Assembly: GCA_003222205.1 (NCBI GenBank)
Contig: QHVC01000108.1
Span: 1-37,382, forward strand
From: Gemmatimonadota bacterium
Lineage (GTDB): Bacteria > Gemmatimonadota > Gemmatimonadetes > Gemmatimonadales > GWC2-71-9
Direction: 5' to 3'
DNA: 37,382 bases
Position 1 is the first letter of the stretch; each line of letters opens with the position of its first letter. Below are positions 7,928 to 30,825 of the stretch, one piece after another. The position numbers were made by a program, and so were the translations under genes. The notes under the pieces are model-generated. The model was given only the letters and a program-made list of their open reading frames with translations, did no database searches and was not told the DNA's origin.

Positions 7928-8847
7928 ACGAACTGCTGGCCGACGGCCACGCCGCGGCCGCGGATCCACTCCGCCGCGGTCATGCGCGACTTGCCCGTCG
8001 GTTGGACCTCCTCCACGACGACCGCTCCTGCCCCCGCCGCCACGACGAACTGGTCGTCTGTTCTCAGGACGGTGCCGGGCGTGCCGCTGCCTTCGCCGAC
8101 GTGAGCGTGGAACAGCTTGATCTCCTGGCCATCGAGCGTCGTCCACGCTCCCGGCTTGGGATCGAGGCCGAGCGTGGCGCGCATGACGGCGTCGGGGCCG
8201 GCGTCCCAGCGGATCCGCGCCGTCTCGCGCGTGATCTTGGGGGCGTATGTGGCCCGCGTCTCTTCCTGCGGCACCGGGCGCAGCATGTCCTGCTCCATCA
8301 GCGCGAGGGCCTCGACGAGCGCCTGCGCGCCCATCTCGGCGAGGTGCACGGACAGCTCTCCCCGGGTGACATCGTTGGGGATGCGATGCGGCAACTGGAG
8401 CAGGATCGGCCCGCTGTCGAGACCCGCGGTCATCTGCATGATGGTGACGCCGGTGTTCTCGAGCCCGCGCAGGATCGCCCATTCGACCGGAGCCGCGCCG
8501 CGCAGCTCGGGGAGCAACGAGGGGTGGACGTTGACCATGCCGCGCTTGGGGATCGCGAGCAGCTCCGGTTTGAGCAAATGCCCGTACGCGACGACGACGC
8601 CGACGTCGGGCGCGAGGCGGCGGATCTCCTCGAGAAACTCCGGCGTCGACGGGCGTTCCGGCTGGAGCACGGGGACGTCCTCCTCCAGCGCGGCGGCTTT
8701 CACGGGCGACGGCACGAGCGTGGAGCGGGAGCGGCCCTGCGGCTTGTCGGGGCGGGTGACCACGGCGGCGACGTCGAAGCCCTCGCCGAGGAGGGCCTCG
8801 AGCGACGGGACGGCAAACTCGGGAGTGCCGAAGAAGACCACGCGCAC
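7924..8847 (-). CDS. fmt: Methionyl-tRNA formyltransferase
   Basis: Fmt formylates initiator Met-tRNA with 10-formyltetrahydrofolate. The 307-residue protein has RVVFFGTPEFAVPSLEALL at the start, PDVGVVVAYGHLLKPELL, the VNVHPSLLPELRGAAP block with the catalytic Asn and His, TGVTIMQMTAGLDSGPIL, and the C-terminal OB-like domain. The start codon is GTG at 8847, directly abutting the def stop with no spacer. Pairing with deformylase is the classic arrangement. Confidence 0.98.
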   Translation of the reverse strand: MRVVFFGTPEFAVPSLEALLGEGFDVAAVVTRPDKPQGRSRSTLVPSPVKAAALEEDVPVLQPERPSTPEFLEEIRRLAPDVGVVVAYGHLLKPELLAIPKRGMVNVHPSLLPELRGAAPVEWAILRGLENTGVTIMQMTAGLDSGPILLQLPHRIPNDVTRGELSVHLAEMGAQALVEALALMEQDMLRPVPQEETRATYAPKITRETARIRWDAGPDAVMRATLGLDPKPGAWTTLDGQEIKLFHAHVGEGSGTPGTVLRTDDQFVVAAGAGAVVVEEVQPTGKSRMTAAEWIRGRGVAVGQQFV

Positions 8848-9392
8848 TTACAGCTCGCCGGCCGGCTCGGGCGTGACCTCTTTGAGGAACCCCTTCTTTC
8901 CCTTGCGCGCCTTCTTCCATTTGGCCACCAGGAGGCTGCGCTTCACGGCGCTCAGGTGGTCGAGGAAGAGGACGCCGTCGAGGTGGTCGATCTCGTGCTG
9001 GACGGCGCGGGCCTTGTAGCCGCCCACTTCGGCGCGGCAGGGACGGCCGTCGCGGTCGAGCGCCTCGACCACCACGCGCTGCGCTCGTTCGACGTCGCCG
9101 AAGATCTCCGGGATCGAGAGGCACCCTTCCTCGGCGATCTCGATCTCCGGGCTGCGCTCGACGATCACGGGGTTGATGAGCACCAGCGGGGGCGGGTGCT
9201 CCTCGCCCACGTCCACGACCGCGACGCGCTGCGCGACGCCGACCTGGTTGGCGGCGAGCCCCACGCCCTTGGCGGCGCGCATCGTTTCGAACAGGTCGTC
9301 CACGAGCCGCCGCACGGCGTCGTCCACGCGGGCCACGGGCGCCGCGCGCTGGCGCAGCACCGGCGAGCCGAGCAGGTGGAGGCTGCGGACGG

Positions 9393-9396
<4 letters not shown>
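8848..9396 (-). CDS. def: Peptide deformylase
   Basis: Def removes the formyl group from nascent proteins. The 182-residue metalloenzyme has all three motifs: GVGLAANQVG, EEGCLSIP (metal Cys) and QHEIDHLDG (HExxH metal ligands). The C-terminal tail after the catalytic domain is basic (KWKKARKGKKG), a common ribosome-contact feature of the family. The GTG start at 9396 overlaps the yajC stop as GTGA. Confidence 0.98.
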
Positions 9397-10999
<1,603 letters not shown>

Positions 11000-16960: not shown

Positions 16961-17941
16961 GACCGGTGCGACCGCCGTCATCACGTCCGCTGGTGAGATG
17001 TCGACGAGGCAGCGGTGGTGTCCCATCGGGCAGCGCGCCGAGCCCATGGCGGAGCAGGGGCGGCAATCGAGCGCGCGCTGCAGCACGGTGGCGCGCGCGC
17101 TGTACGGGAAGAACCCGAACTGCTCGACCGTCGGGCCGAACAGGGCGACGACCGGCGTCCCCACGCCCGTGGCCATGTGCATCACCCCCGTGTCGTTCGA
17201 CACGAGCACGCGCGCGCGCGCCAGCAAGGCCCCCGTTTCCTGGAGCGAGAACTCGCCCGCGGCGGTCACCGCCTGCCCGGCGAGCTCGCCGCCGAGGCCG
17301 CGGTCGTCCGGGCCGCCGAGCACCACCGCCGTCATTCCCGTCGCGCGCAGTCGCGCGGCCAACTGCTCCCAGTGAGCCAGGGGCCAGCGCTTCGTGGCGT
17401 GGGCGGCGCCGGGCGCGAGCGCGACGAGTGGGGCGTCGGCCGCGCCGCGGGCGGCGAGCCATTGCGCGACGCGCGCCCGCGCGGGCGCGCCGAGCGCGAA
17501 CTCCGGCGGGTCCCCGTCGGGCTGCACGTCGAGGTGGCGGGCCGCGGCGAAGTAGCGCTCGGGAACCGGAACGTGCCGGCCGTAGATGTCGAGCTTGGTG
17601 GCGATCAGCGCGGCGCGCGCGAGCTTGCGCTTGCGGTAGCCCGCCCAGCGGCAGCGCACGAGCAGGCGCAGCGCCCGGCTGCGCAGGCTGCCGTGCAGGT
17701 CGAGGCCGTGCGTCGGGCCGAGCGCGGCGAGCCGCGCCGCGAAGTGGCGCACCGGCTCGCTCGGCTCCAAGGTGACGACGTCCGAGAGGTGCGGGTTGTC
17801 GGCGACGAGCGGGGCCATCGCCCGTTTGGTGACGAACACGAGGCGCGCCCCGGGGTGCCGTCGGCGCAACGCGCGCAGCAGCGGCGTGGTGAGCAGCACG
17901 TCCCCGATGGAGCTGAACCGGACGAGCAAAATGGACAGCAC
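16925..17941 (-). CDS. Glycosyltransferase family 9 (heptosyltransferase-like)
   Basis: A 338-residue GT9 enzyme, the family that adds heptose to the LPS inner core from ADP-heptose. It has the opening ILLVRFSSIGDVLLTTPLLRAL, the sugar-nucleotide site APGAAHATKRWPLAHW, and the family motif SNDTGVMHMATGVGTPVVALFGPT. A cysteine cluster CRPCSAMGSARCPMGHHRC near residue 295 recalls the form seen in other heptosyltransferases. Start is GTG at 17941, with a -10-like TACATT 6 bases upstream. The acceptor sugar cannot be read from sequence. Confidence 0.92.
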   Translation of the reverse strand: MLSILLVRFSSIGDVLLTTPLLRALRRRHPGARLVFVTKRAMAPLVADNPHLSDVVTLEPSEPVRHFAARLAALGPTHGLDLHGSLRSRALRLLVRCRWAGYRKRKLARAALIATKLDIYGRHVPVPERYFAAARHLDVQPDGDPPEFALGAPARARVAQWLAARGAADAPLVALAPGAAHATKRWPLAHWEQLAARLRATGMTAVVLGGPDDRGLGGELAGQAVTAAGEFSLQETGALLARARVLVSNDTGVMHMATGVGTPVVALFGPTVEQFGFFPYSARATVLQRALDCRPCSAMGSARCPMGHHRCLVDISPADVMTAVAPVIPFQPSPASRP

Positions 17942-17961
17942 GCGGCCAATGTACCCGCGCG

Positions 17962-17990
17962 TTGCCCGCCCTCGCCAGCCGGACTAGCTT
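17962..17990 (+). promoter_or_regulatory. Sigma70-like promoter of the PorX-like gene
   Basis: TTGCCC at 17962-17967, 17-base spacer, TAGCTT at 17985-17990, then 8 bases to the ATG. This predicts a leaderless or nearly leaderless message. Confidence 0.45.
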
Positions 17991-17998
17991 TCGCCGCG

Positions 17999-19588
17999 AT
18001 GCCCCCCTCCGCCCCCTCTCGCCCGAAGAACATCCTCTGGGTCGACGACGAGGTGGAGGGCCTCGCCGCGCACCGCCAATTCCTCGAGCAGCAGGGGTTC
18101 ACCGTCGAGCAGGCCGCGCACGGCGACGATGCGCTCGCCTTGCTGCGCCGCCAGCCGTACAGCCTCGTGCTCCTCGACGAACAGATGCCCGGCAAGCGCG
18201 GGCTGGAGCTCCTGCCGGAGATTCGCGCCATCGATCCGGCGATGCCGGTCGTCATGGTGACGCAGAGCGAGGAAGAGTCGCTGCTGCGCGAAGCGATCGG
18301 CATTCAGGTCGACGACTACCTCGTCAAGCCGGTGCACCCGCGCCAGATCCTCTCCGTCATCACGCGGCTGCTCGAGGGGGATCGCATCCGCCAGCAGCGG
18401 TTGGCGCGCGACTTCGTCACGCGCTTCCGCGAGCTCGAGGCGCGCCGCGGCACGACGCTGGCCTGGCGCGAATGGATCGAGCTGGTGGTGGAGCTCACGC
18501 GCTGGGAAGTGCGGCTCTCCGAAGCGCAGGAGCCCGGCCTGCTTGAGGCGCTGCGCGACCTCCAGGTCAGCCTGCGCAAGGATTTCGCCGACTTCTTCCG
18601 CCGCCACTACCCGCGCTGGCTCGCCAACCCCGAGGGCGATCGCCCGCCGCTCTCGGTGGACGTGGGCGCCGAGTTCCTCGTCCCCGTGCTCAAGGCGAAG
18701 GGCAAGGTCCTGTTCCTCATCATCGACTGCCTGCGGCTCGACCAGTGGGAGGCGTTGAAGGAACTGGTGACGCCGCTGTTCGACATCGAAGAGTCGTACT
18801 ACTACGGCATCGTGCCCACCGCGACGCCGTTCGCGCGCAACGCGATCTTCAGCGGCATGTTCCCGATGGAGATCGCCGCCCGCCACCCGGAATGGTGGGG
18901 CCAGCCCTCGGACGAAGAGAGCCTGAACGCCCACGAGCCGGAGCTGCTGAGCGAGCAGTTGGCGGACCTCCTGGGCAAGCCGGTCCCCGTGCGCTACGAG
19001 AAGCTGTTCACCTCGAACGACGGCCCCGAGCTGCTGCGCAAGCTTCCCGCGCATCTCGCCCAGGACGGCGTGACGGCGCTGGTGTTCAACTTCATCGACC
19101 AGCTCACGCACGGCCGCTCGGAGAGCGCGATCCTCTACGAGGTGGCGCGCGACGCGGACGCGCTGCGCGGCCTGACGCGCACCTGGTTCGAGCGCTCGCC
19201 CGTCCGGGCGGCGCTCGCCGAGGCGGAGCGGCGCGGCGTCCCCGTGCTGCTCACCACCGACCACGGCTCGATCCACTGCGAAACGCCGGCCACCGTGTTC
19301 GCCAAGCGCGACGCCACGCAGAACCTGCGCTACAAGTTCGGCGAGGACCTCCGCGCCGAAGACCCCGAAGCCGCGATCACGGTGGAGGACTTGAAGGCGT
19401 GGGGCCTCCCGGCCCTCGGCCTCGGCGTGCGCATGCTGCTCGCGACCACCGACCGCTTCTTCGTCTATCCCACCAAGCTGCGCGAGTACCAGGCGCGCTA
19501 TCGCGGCTCCTTCCTGCACGGCGGGGTGACGCCCGAAGAGGTGATCCTCCCGGTCGCGCTGCTCACCCCGCGCGGGGGAGCCCGCTGA
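17999..19588 (+). CDS. PorX-like response regulator: receiver domain plus PglZ domain
   Basis: The 529-residue protein joins a receiver (residues 10-125: acidic pair D16/D17, phospho-acceptor D60 in LLDEQMPG, T88, K110) to a helical linker and a PglZ/alkaline-phosphatase-like domain (from about 225: LIIDCLRLDQW, PTATPFARNAIFSG, TTDHGSIH at 419-426, FLHGGVTPEEVILP at 506). This is the architecture of PorX, which controls type IX secretion in Bacteroidetes and whose P. gingivalis member is a zinc phosphodiesterase acting on oligonucleotides. No PorY sensor kinase or secretion gene is in the window. The next gene starts directly after the stop. Start chosen for the receiver N terminus; the longer upstream frame is a shadow. 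Confidence 0.93.
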   Translation: MPPSAPSRPKNILWVDDEVEGLAAHRQFLEQQGFTVEQAAHGDDALALLRRQPYSLVLLDEQMPGKRGLELLPEIRAIDPAMPVVMVTQSEEESLLREAIGIQVDDYLVKPVHPRQILSVITRLLEGDRIRQQRLARDFVTRFRELEARRGTTLAWREWIELVVELTRWEVRLSEAQEPGLLEALRDLQVSLRKDFADFFRRHYPRWLANPEGDRPPLSVDVGAEFLVPVLKAKGKVLFLIIDCLRLDQWEALKELVTPLFDIEESYYYGIVPTATPFARNAIFSGMFPMEIAARHPEWWGQPSDEESLNAHEPELLSEQLADLLGKPVPVRYEKLFTSNDGPELLRKLPAHLAQDGVTALVFNFIDQLTHGRSESAILYEVARDADALRGLTRTWFERSPVRAALAEAERRGVPVLLTTDHGSIHCETPATVFAKRDATQNLRYKFGEDLRAEDPEAAITVEDLKAWGLPALGLGVRMLLATTDRFFVYPTKLREYQARYRGSFLHGGVTPEEVILPVALLTPRGGAR

Positions 19589-22262: not shown

Positions 22263-23759
22263 ATGACGCTGCCCCGGCCGCGCGCCGTGTGGATCGCGCT
22301 GGGCACGCTCACCGCCGCCCAGGTCGGCATCGGCACGTGGCGCGCGGGTGTGATGCTGCGCGAGGGCCTGGCGGCGGGCGAGCAGCCGTTCGTCCTGGCG
22401 GGTGTGGCCGGGGAGCTGGCACTGAGCGTGGCGATCGCCGCGCTCGCCTGGTGGTGGCTGCCCGTCAGCGGCCGAGGCCGGTCGCTGGTCGCGTGGGCAG
22501 TGCGATTCGTGCTGCTGGCGTGGACGCTGGCGCTGGCTCATTATGCGTTCGCGCTGACGACGGGGAGCCTCCGGCCGATCGTGACGCCCATCGCGATCGC
22601 TCTGCTCGCAGCGTTGGGCGCTTGGGTACGGCGCTGGTCACAGCCCACGCCACCGGCTGCCGCATGCCCGGCACCCGACACCGGACACCCGGCTTTATTG
22701 CTCGCCGCGGCGTTCTGGGTCTTCCAGCTCACGCACCTCGTGTTCCCCTATCACTTCACCGACGCGCAGGACATCTGGGCGTGCCGGGCCTTCAAGTTCG
22801 CCGAGCACGGGGCGCTGACCGGCGTATTCGACTGCCTCGATCCCGCCCGGCCGCCCCTGTACTCGGTCATGCTGTGGCTCGGCGCGGGCGATCCCACGTT
22901 CCAGGGGCGGCTGCTGCCGACCCTCATGGTAGGAGCGTTCGGGTTCCTCTTCTATCATCTGTTGCGCCGCGTCGCGCCGCGCCTCGCGCCCTGGGGGGTG
23001 CTGTGGCTGTTCGTCACCGACCACGTGATGAAGGGGGCGGTCTCGTTCTACGCGGGCGTCCCGGTGATGATCGCGGCGACGGTGGCGATTGCCCTGGCCG
23101 TGGACGACGGGGCGCTCGCGCCGCGGCGTCTCGCGATCATCGGCGCGGTGATCGCCGGCGCGGCCGTGGCGTTGATCCGACGCGACGGGCTGCCGGAGTT
23201 CGCGGTGGCGGGCGCCGTCGTCATGATGCGCACGCGCGCGTGGCGGGAGCCGCGGCTCTGGGCGGCGGCCGCCGGCGCGGCGGTCGGGTACCTGAGCTGG
23301 ACGCTGCGGCCCGCCGTGCTGCACGCGCCGCCGCTGTTCGCGCCGACGCTCGACCCGCAGGCCCCCTGGACGCTCGCCGCGGCGGCGCACGCGATGGGCC
23401 GGCTCTTGTACGGCGCGCAGGGGCAGGTGTTCAGCCACTACGGCTACGGCGTGTTCGCCTGGGGCTGGATCGTGGTAGCGGTGTGGGCCGCGCGCCGGGC
23501 AACGGGCAACGTGCCACTGGCGACTCTGATGGGCCTCGCCGGGTTGGCCGCCTGGCTCGCGACCCTGGCGTTGTACGCGATCCTCACCTTCACCGGCCAC
23601 CCGCAGATGAGCACCCTGTTCATCATCCGCACCGGCTTCGGCCGTCACCTCGTCCACTTCTATCCGCTGTGCCTCTTGCACGCGGTGAGCCTGGGGGAGC
23701 GCCTCCTCAGCGCTGGGCCCACGGCGTCGCCCGGCCCGCCGGGAGCTCACCCGTCTTGA
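22263..23759 (+). CDS. Multi-pass membrane protein, GT-C glycosyltransferase-like
   Basis: A 498-residue protein with about ten or more hydrophobic segments. The loop after an early membrane segment reads YHFTDAQDIWACRAFKFAEHG, resembling the acidic first loop of lipid-phosphate-sugar-dependent GT-C enzymes such as PMT/ArnT types; the assignment is by resemblance. Two short repeat arrays fall inside it: 22667-22694 (residues about 135-145, PAPDTGHP) and 23497-23517 (ATGNV). Its last 53 bases overlap the convergent GT4 gene. One base separates it from the GT2 gene. Confidence 0.75.
   Translation: MTLPRPRAVWIALGTLTAAQVGIGTWRAGVMLREGLAAGEQPFVLAGVAGELALSVAIAALAWWWLPVSGRGRSLVAWAVRFVLLAWTLALAHYAFALTTGSLRPIVTPIAIALLAALGAWVRRWSQPTPPAAACPAPDTGHPALLLAAAFWVFQLTHLVFPYHFTDAQDIWACRAFKFAEHGALTGVFDCLDPARPPLYSVMLWLGAGDPTFQGRLLPTLMVGAFGFLFYHLLRRVAPRLAPWGVLWLFVTDHVMKGAVSFYAGVPVMIAATVAIALAVDDGALAPRRLAIIGAVIAGAAVALIRRDGLPEFAVAGAVVMMRTRAWREPRLWAAAAGAAVGYLSWTLRPAVLHAPPLFAPTLDPQAPWTLAAAAHAMGRLLYGAQGQVFSHYGYGVFAWGWIVVAVWAARRATGNVPLATLMGLAGLAAWLATLALYAILTFTGHPQMSTLFIIRTGFGRHLVHFYPLCLLHAVSLGERLLSAGPTASPGPPGAHPS
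22667..22694 (+). repeat. Heptamer array CCCGGCA family, inside the GT-C-like gene
   Basis: Units CCCGGCA, CCCGACA, CCGGACA, CCCGGCT in tandem. The encoded residues (PAPDTGHPA) lie in a hydrophilic loop between membrane segments. Confidence 0.8.
23497..23517 (+). repeat. Heptamer array GGGCAAC family, inside the GT-C-like gene
   Basis: Units GGGCAAC, GGGCAAC, GTGCCAC. The same unit in reverse orientation builds the element in queA. Exactly seven codons long. Confidence 0.7.
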
Positions 23760-28542: not shown

Positions 28543-29736
28543 TTGAACCGAACCCTCCTTCTGGCTTTCAACTTCCCCCCCCTGGGCGGCGGCATCGCCC
28601 GTATGATGGGCGAGCTCGCGCGGCGCTACCCGCCGCAGTCGCTGGTCGTCTCCACGGGGCGCGCCCCGGACAGCGCCGCGAGCGACGCCCGCTACCCCCA
28701 GCCGGTGGATCGCGCCGGCATCCGCGCGACGCGCCTGCGCACCCTGAACGGGCTGGCGTTGTGGACGTGGCGCGCGGGTCAGCTCGCGCGCGAGTTCTCG
28801 CCGCGCTTCACGTGGTGCGCCGAGCTCAAGCCCGCCGGCTATCCGGCGCGCTGGCTGGCGTGGCGCCGTGGCATCCCCTACGGCGTAGTAGTCCACGGCA
28901 CGGAGCTGCTGCTGCTCGACGCCAAGATCCGCCGTAGCCGCTTCAAACGCTGGACGGGCGGCGCGCTGCTCGGGGGCGCCGCGGTCGTCGTCGCCAACAG
29001 CCGCTGGACGGGCGAGTTGGCGCGCTCCGTCTACGACCGCCTCGGCCGGCCCGACCTCGCGCGACGCGTCGAGGTCGTCCCGCTGGGGACCAGCCCCGAG
29101 CGCTTCCGGCCGGGCCTCGATCCCGGTCCTGCGCGCGCGGCGTACGGACTCGATGGCGGCCCGTGGCTGCTCACCGTCGCGCGGCTCGAGTGGCACAAGG
29201 GGATCGACACCGTCATCCGGGCGCTGCCCGCCGTCCGGGCGCGGCACCCGGACGTCCGCTACGCGGTGGCGGGGGTGGGTCCGCGGCGGCCCGAGCTGGA
29301 GCAGCTGGCCCGAGACGTGGGCGTCGCCGCCGCGGTGCGGTTCCTGGGGCCGGTGCCCGAGGACCAGCTGCCGGGGCTCTACAACGCGGCGAGCCTGTAT
29401 GTCGGGGCATCGCGGCGCTACGACCTGCTCGCCGAAGGGTTCGGGATCGCGCTCGTCGAGGCGTCGGCATCGGGGCTCGCGGTCGTCGGCGGCGACTCGG
29501 CCGGCGTCGCGGACGCGGTGCGCGACGGGGAGACGGGGATGCTGGTGGATCCGGAGGACGCGGCCGCGGTCGCGGCGGGGATCGTGCGGCTGCTCGGCGA
29601 CGACCAGCTGCGCGCGCGCCTCGGCGCGGCGGGGCGGCGCGCGGTCGAAACCTACTACAACTGGGACCGCGTGGCGCGCGACTTCATCCGGATCGACGCA
29701 GCGGTTCGACGGCCGGCGCCGCTGGCCGCGCGCTGA
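28543..29736 (+). CDS. Glycosyltransferase family 4, second of two paralogs
   Basis: A 397-residue GT-B enzyme with LLLAFNFPPLGGGIARMMGELARRYP, VARLEWHKGIDTVIRAL and EGFGIALVEASASGLAVVGGDSAG. A tandem duplicate of the gene before it by shared blocks and length. The start is uncertain: TTG at 28543 gives NRTLLLAFNFPP, the expected first strand, but the upstream bases are heptamer repeat with no ribosome site. The last 53 bases overlap the convergent patatin-ferredoxin gene. Confidence 0.9.
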   Translation: MNRTLLLAFNFPPLGGGIARMMGELARRYPPQSLVVSTGRAPDSAASDARYPQPVDRAGIRATRLRTLNGLALWTWRAGQLAREFSPRFTWCAELKPAGYPARWLAWRRGIPYGVVVHGTELLLLDAKIRRSRFKRWTGGALLGGAAVVVANSRWTGELARSVYDRLGRPDLARRVEVVPLGTSPERFRPGLDPGPARAAYGLDGGPWLLTVARLEWHKGIDTVIRALPAVRARHPDVRYAVAGVGPRRPELEQLARDVGVAAAVRFLGPVPEDQLPGLYNAASLYVGASRRYDLLAEGFGIALVEASASGLAVVGGDSAGVADAVRDGETGMLVDPEDAAAVAAGIVRLLGDDQLRARLGAAGRRAVETYYNWDRVARDFIRIDAAVRRPAPLAAR

Positions 29737-30769
29737 TCGCGTACGTCGGGCAGTTGCGGATGAACACGCCGCCGGTCGGACCCCATTCCTGGTCCGGCGT
29801 CGTCACCACGGCCTTCCCCTGCGCGTCCAGCACGAACATCCCCGGCGGGCCGAACACCAAACACGCGCCGCACCCGATGCAACGATCGCGCTCGACGCGC
29901 ACCACGACGCGCCGCCGCGGGAACACGCCCTCGTCCCCGGCTGCGGGCCACTCGGCCTCACGCTCCAGGGCCGCCTTCGTCGAGCGATAACCCTCCTCCA
30001 CCATTTCCCGCAGGTGGTCGAACGAGAACATGGAGATGTGCTCGACGCGCGGGTGCAGGTAGTAGACCGGCGGCAGGGTCCACGTGCGCAGCCGCACCTC
30101 GAGCTGCGTCTGCATCGCCAGCTCGGTGGCGCGCGCGAACACCGCCGCGAACCCGTCGTCCTGCGTGTCGGCGCGCAGCGCGCTGGACGCCGAAACGTCC
30201 ACGGCGAGGATCAACTCGGTGTCCAGGGCCCGGGCCGCGCCGAAGGGGAGGTTGTCCACCGTCGCGCCGTCGATGTAAAAGCGGCCGCGGATCTCGTGGG
30301 GTGGGAGGTAGCCCGGTAGCGCGCACGATGCCATCACGGCGTCGGCGACCTGCACCTCGTCCACGCCGGGCAGGCCCCAGAACACCTGCATCCCCGAGTT
30401 GATGTCCACGGTGTTCACCACGGTAGGCAGCATCAGGTCCTGGAAGGTGCCGTCGCCCACCAGGCTCTGGATCAGCGCCGCCAGCGGCTCGCGCCGGAAC
30501 AGGGCGGGGGAGCGCATCCGCTTGAACGCCATGTCGGCGTGGGCGACCACGAAGACGTCCTTGCGCCGCAGACTCACGGCGCGGTCGCGCAGCTCGGGGA
30601 TGCTGCGGCCGGCCGCCCACGCCGCGCCCACCAGCGCGCCCACGCTCGACGCCACGATCTGGGCCGGTCGCAGGCCGCGCTCCAGCAGCGCCTGCAGCAC
30701 GCCGATGTGCGCGAGGCCCTTCATCCCGCCGCCGCCCAGGACGAGCGTGTATCGGGTGCCCGGTTTCAT
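29684..30769 (-). CDS. Patatin-like phospholipase fused to a [4Fe-4S] ferredoxin domain
   Basis: A 361-residue protein. Residues about 5-200 form a patatin fold: oxyanion loop GGGGMKGLAHIG, nucleophile serine in VASSVGALVGAAW (the usual GxSxG reads ASSVG), and the catalytic Asp in FYIDGATVDNLPF. The C-terminal 75 residues carry a ferredoxin-like domain: CIGCGAC, then GMFVLDAQGKAVV and a last NCPTYAIS, four cysteines in the pattern of a single [4Fe-4S] cluster. No membrane segment is obvious. The ATG at 30769 is preceded by GTG; an extended frame to 30820 is possible but would use up the divergent gap. Confidence 0.88.
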   Translation of the reverse strand: MKPGTRYTLVLGGGGMKGLAHIGVLQALLERGLRPAQIVASSVGALVGAAWAAGRSIPELRDRAVSLRRKDVFVVAHADMAFKRMRSPALFRREPLAALIQSLVGDGTFQDLMLPTVVNTVDINSGMQVFWGLPGVDEVQVADAVMASCALPGYLPPHEIRGRFYIDGATVDNLPFGAARALDTELILAVDVSASSALRADTQDDGFAAVFARATELAMQTQLEVRLRTWTLPPVYYLHPRVEHISMFSFDHLREMVEEGYRSTKAALEREAEWPAAGDEGVFPRRRVVVRVERDRCIGCGACLVFGPPGMFVLDAQGKAVVTTPDQEWGPTGGVFIRNCPTYAISARPAAPAVEPLRRSG

Positions 30770-30812: not shown

Positions 30813-30825
30813 AGTCGCATCCCCT

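Follow-up and report, generated by a model that had tools for sequence, protein, structure and literature searches.

A patatin-type hydrolase and a ferredoxin domain joined in one reading frame in Gemmatimonadota, with a second version in Planctomycetota

The window analyzed here is the whole stretch of 37,382 nucleotides read from contig QHVC01000108.1 of a Gemmatimonadota bacterium. On its minus strand, translation gives an uninterrupted frame of 361 codons, from an ATG at 30769 to a stop codon ending at 29684 (29684–30769, stop codon included), while the plus strand of the same segment contains an internal stop. The encoded protein of 361 amino acids is a patatin–ferredoxin fusion, and the frame is kept as a single one in relatives. 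As the preliminary description had it, one frame holds the hydrolase core of a patatin together with a ferredoxin that has all four cysteines, and both domains score above the Pfam cut-offs. Translation from an ATG farther upstream, at 30820, would yield 378 amino acids; the start at 30769 is the likelier one because the stretch preceding it shows poor conservation in the alignment of relatives. The 3′ end of the gene overlaps (29684–29736) that of a convergent glycosyltransferase gene on the plus strand (28543–29736), and the same arrangement occurs in several relatives.

The patatin domain covers residues 9–179 (30233–30745, minus strand; PF01734, E 2.8e-34, 119.4 bits vs. a cut-off of 27.7). 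It contains the oxyanion loop GGGGMKG, Ser42 within ASSVG (residues 40–44), and Asp167 within DGA. The closest solved sequence for the N-terminal part is the patatin PlpD (5fqu, E 5.9e-22), and PlpD is also the top fold for the patatin part of the AlphaFold2 model in Foldseek (5fya, E 1.8e-21). Conservation was followed in an alignment of 63 rows, made of the 62 distinct full-length fused frames among the loci fetched (one the window's own copy and 61 others, from Gemmatimonadota) and of the window itself. Although the least similar pair is only 36% identical, Ser42, Gly44, Asp167, Cys297, Cys300, Cys303, Cys340, and Pro341 are present in 63 of 63 rows, and with them the catalytic dyad Ser42/Asp167. 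From these invariant residues, the protein is predicted to be a patatin-type lipid acyl hydrolase. The elbows around Ser42 are GSSVG (25 rows), GTSIG (19), GSSIG (9), GSSMG (4), ASSVG (2), and, once each, GTSVG, GTSMG, GCSIG, and GASIG. The two ASSVG rows are the window protein and its own second copy (L001); the window protein thus has AxSxG, and each of the 61 further distinct members has GxSxG. The departure from GxSxG pointed out earlier is thus present in the window but is not a trait of the family; it comes down to one G-to-A residue change private to the window protein.

The single-cluster ferredoxin domain occupies about residues 290–350 (29720–29902, minus strand), with the ligand motif C297-x2-C300-x2-C303 ... 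C340-P341. PF13459 (Fer4_15) matches residues 290–328 (E 1.7e-6, 29.0 bits vs. a cut-off of 22.4), and it matches the homologue in the genome G018 at 33 bits. The closest solved sequences for the C-terminal part are the single-cluster ferredoxins 1rof/1vjw and 1dwl; in Foldseek, that part resembles ferredoxin I of D. africanus (1fxr), with a TM-score on the target of 0.76 but a weak E of 0.019. The AlphaFold2 model was built on an alignment of 15 rows (mean pLDDT 82.2, pTM 0.82), and over residues 281–350 the values are 79–95 per ten-residue block. The invariant residues lead one to expect a [4Fe-4S] cluster bound by this domain. Across 381 pairs from the window's family, the ferredoxin part has a median dN/dS (Nei–Gojobori) of 0.157 and the patatin part one of 0.26; the pairs are non-independent, and dS is rough owing to the G+C bias. 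Purifying selection is stronger on the ferredoxin part than on the patatin part.

A scan of contigs of public genomes yielded 43 loci, of which 28, all from Gemmatimonadota, align with the window over the entire fusion with the four cysteines invariant. Left out of that alignment were three loci at contig ends (L027, L033, and L037) and two with interrupted frames (L032, which contains N, and L034); the further 10 (L035, L036, and L038–L045) are patatins whose match breaks off short of the ferredoxin or where the contig ends. That an assembly error or a frameshift joins two adjacent genes, the refutation foreseen in the preliminary description and looked for here, is hardly credible: breaks do occur in such assemblies (L032 and L034 among the 43 loci, and L078), but dozens of species have the gene in the same joined form, and such an origin is ruled out by the 61 further distinct proteins, which come from many assemblies, including the one-contig genomes G018, G038, and G128, and have an uninterrupted full-length frame. 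The fusion copy L078 (G132:C6:153160–154172) belongs to a genome that is 97% complete; its frame is broken, through either a sequencing error or decay of the gene.

In the search of Gemmatimonadota genomes, 332 of 395 had some match. Among the matches listed, 146 of 150 cover both domains, and all of these come from three families within the window's order, f1, f2, and f3; the partial ones are in G364, G367, G213, and G194. A further search covered 43 genomes; there, the strong matches from families f4–f9 of the same class end near residue 281 and thus comprise a patatin without the ferredoxin. Patatin matches alone are also given by certain genera of the window's own family, g4, g5, and g6 among them. 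A scan for the motif in 20 long loci found the complete CxxCxxC...CP only in fused genes, and no separate ferredoxin gene beside the patatin-only relatives, except for one chance match on the opposite strand of L141. The single ferredoxins of the sister genomes lie elsewhere: no patatin match was seen in the six stretches that carry them (L145–L150), and both of those translated (L145 and L146) are without the second cysteine. Outside the phylum, no double-domain match was among those listed for 100 genomes of Synergistota; none of 100 matching plasmid records covered 80% of the query, and viral contigs contained one relative, a patatin only.

In Planctomycetota, 133 of 294 genomes match, and ten patatins with a C-terminal ferredoxin occur (L176–L184 and L186). 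Nine of them were aligned (the protein of L178 was left out), and their ferredoxin part has seven invariant cysteines in a pattern of the two-cluster type, CxxCxxCxxxC ... CxxxxxCxxxCP. Pfam Fer4 is found in two stretches in both of the Planctomycetota fusions scanned.

In a tree of the patatin domain with 66 rows, obtained after the removal of thirteen rows, three clades are seen: the Gemmatimonadota fusions (99/94), the Planctomycetota fusions (100/100), and the Planctomycetota patatins without ferredoxin (99/94). Constraining all the fusions to one clade is rejected (p-AU 0.011). The Gemmatimonadota fusions were already one clade, with weaker support (91/71), in an earlier tree of 64 rows; from that set and from one other, L078 was excluded and the loci L046–L074 were mostly thinned out (9 of 29 kept). 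Two fusions, or one fusion followed by a loss and a changed ferredoxin, would both fit. A shared mechanism is not guaranteed across the phyla, because there are four cysteines in one and seven in the other and because a single clade of fusions is rejected.

Several known systems share parts with the fusion. The patatins of the PlpD/RssA type (PF01734; 5fqu, 5fya) have the same fold, Ser–Asp dyad, and oxyanion loop but, unlike the fusion, no ferredoxin, and the RssA equivalog NF007623 scores below its cut-off (85.5 bits vs. 272). PlpD is a secreted passenger of type Vd; the fusion protein is probably cytosolic. The single-cluster bacterial ferredoxins (PF13459/PF13370; 1vjw/1rof, 1dwl, and 1fxr) have the same CxxCxxC...CP ligands and fold, but are free carriers, whereas here the ferredoxin is the C-terminal domain of a lipid hydrolase. 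The patatin phospholipases of CBASS (CapV and CapE) have the hydrolase domain in common with the fusion; their extra part is nucleotide-sensing, whereas that of the fusion is a ferredoxin. The model for the cGAMP-activated CBASS phospholipase (NF041079, CBASS_lipase) likewise stays below its cut-off (52.9 bits vs. 200), and no cyclase is present among the neighbors scanned. In the non-subscription literature searched, no description of a patatin–ferredoxin fusion was found; domain databases may hold an automatic annotation of this architecture.

Electron transfer or redox control in the fusion protein is plausible, and the Planctomycetota version speaks indirectly in favor of it. Of the functions considered, we tentatively prefer that of a lipid acyl hydrolase that is active and carries its own single-[4Fe-4S] electron-transfer domain, serving a separate redox partner. 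The patatin part, through the Ser42/Asp167 dyad, would free an acyl chain from a lipid, and the C-terminal ferredoxin would exchange electrons, in either direction, with a separate redox enzyme, which would either act on the freed acyl product or work at the same place on the membrane; as a result, lipid cleavage and a redox step would be physically coupled. We infer the binding of the cluster, the hydrolase activity, the flow of electrons through the cluster, and the existence of a partner in Gemmatimonadota. Electron transfer is favored by the seven-cysteine pattern of the two-cluster type in Planctomycetota, which would be less likely at a sensor site or a purely structural one. That the join is kept intact within one order, and that another phylum has a version of its own, suggests a cooperation of electron transfer with lipid breakdown there. 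For patatin lipases, the usual means of regulation are partner proteins, nucleotides, or localization; a conserved Fe–S domain in the chain of a lipase would let lipid breakdown directly answer to, or feed, the electron flow of the cell.

The gene neighborhoods bear on the nature of the partner. In the window's family, a widely kept order comprises genes for PBP1, TyrRS, a class-V aminotransferase, an OppC-type permease, the fusion, and glycosyltransferases; no obvious redox partner is among these neighbors (glycosyltransferases, the peptide-ABC permease, the class-V aminotransferase, TyrRS, and the penicillin-binding protein). In family f2, a gene for aconitase, a 4Fe–4S enzyme, adjoins the fused gene or is near it in 15 of the 22 loci viewed, several of them with a flank of only about 1.7 kb. 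In two loci of that family (L125 and L127), an OmpR-type response regulator is divergent from the fused gene, with a histidine kinase also in L125. In families f4, f5, and f6, the SUF operon divergently adjoins the patatin-only gene in 15 of the 19 strong loci (L079–L097, with no SUF neighborhood displayed in L079, L082, which is at a contig edge, L093, and L094) and also in L035 and L040; where the stretch is long enough, SufC, SufB, SufD, Rieske, SufS, and NifU are encoded there. A further divergent patatin without ferredoxin adjoins SUF genes in L130 (95–7049). The SUF and aconitase neighbors suggest that expression or function is linked to the Fe–S status in Gemmatimonadota.

These neighbors are what the main alternative draws on, in which the hydrolase would be switched on or off by the [4Fe-4S] cluster, through its presence or its state (redox, oxygen, iron, or Fe–S supply), with the turnover of membrane lipids tied to oxidative stress or to Fe–S status. 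We hold this to be a serious possibility, if a lesser one: three sister families have the related patatin beside the SUF operon, and f2 has aconitase, with the regulator and the kinase in some loci, but the 66-row tree places the SUF-linked patatins elsewhere. Since a well-supported branch separates them from the fused clade, they may not be direct orthologues, and direct descent of the fusion from SUF-linked patatins, considered as an origin, is weakened by the same tree. Furthermore, in G018 the suf genes are about 490 kb away from the fused gene, and the link with aconitase is limited to one family and may amount to inherited gene order. The Planctomycetota form, for its part, has a two-cluster ferredoxin, which to our knowledge is not typical of a sensor.

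It is improbable that the cluster has no redox role and stabilizes the C-terminal domain, a dimer interface, or docking to the membrane. Invariant cysteines are compatible with a structural cluster too, as is the confident AlphaFold2 model of both domains together (pTM 0.82, mean pLDDT 82); the domain is, however, a full ferredoxin with the fold of an electron carrier, and two different types of ferredoxin are joined to related patatins.

For the preferred reading, an electron-transfer domain with a separate partner, a candidate partner, and with it the main support for electron transfer, comes from associations in Planctomycetota. Genes of the aldehyde:ferredoxin-oxidoreductase (AFOR) type are present in nine of the ten genomes with the Planctomycetota fusion vs. 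none of the six nearest patatin-only genomes, and also in 12 of 33 further Planctomycetota that lack the fusion. In one class of that phylum (154 genomes), the fusion family occurs in 102 genomes (a few partial, at contig ends) and an AFOR-like protein in 70, both counted at an E-value limit of 1e-40, at which weaker copies may be missed. The AFOR-like gene is found in 62 of the 102 genomes with the fusion vs. 8 of the 52 without (Fisher p 5.8e-8, ignoring shared ancestry). In 36 of these 62, both genes are on one contig, within 20 kb in 34 and within 5 kb in 18. Genes of the β-oxidation type (enoyl-CoA hydratase/3-hydroxyacyl-CoA dehydrogenase and thiolase) are near several of the Planctomycetota fusion loci. 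These associations would agree with a more specific proposal, which we regard as rather doubtful: the fusion would have been built by two phyla (independently, or a single time followed by a loss and a change of ferredoxin), and in Planctomycetota the hydrolase, the AFOR-like protein, and the β-oxidation-type enzymes would form one lipid-catabolic redox unit. The hydrolase would free an acyl or alkyl chain, and the AFOR-like protein would interconvert aldehyde and acid, with electrons passing via the ferredoxin of the hydrolase. Such an enzyme, if the proposal is true, would represent a new class of redox-coupled lipase. Such a partner is not transferable to Gemmatimonadota, because none of 11 genomes of that phylum has an AFOR-type gene.

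Some of the AFOR-like proteins of Planctomycetota are divergent (L179, 2712–4850 on the minus strand, L178, and L180); in the consensus of the three-row alignment, they end in IAGG, a tail that looks of the MoaD/ThiS type. In the window itself, two long open frames on the plus strand (8002–9717 and 22263–23759) have a coding-like composition and match no Pfam model at E 0.001. Also on the plus strand, 17015–19588 encodes a PorX-like protein, with a response regulator receiver and a PglZ domain, followed by an ABC exporter; in several relatives, the two are again located near the fusion.
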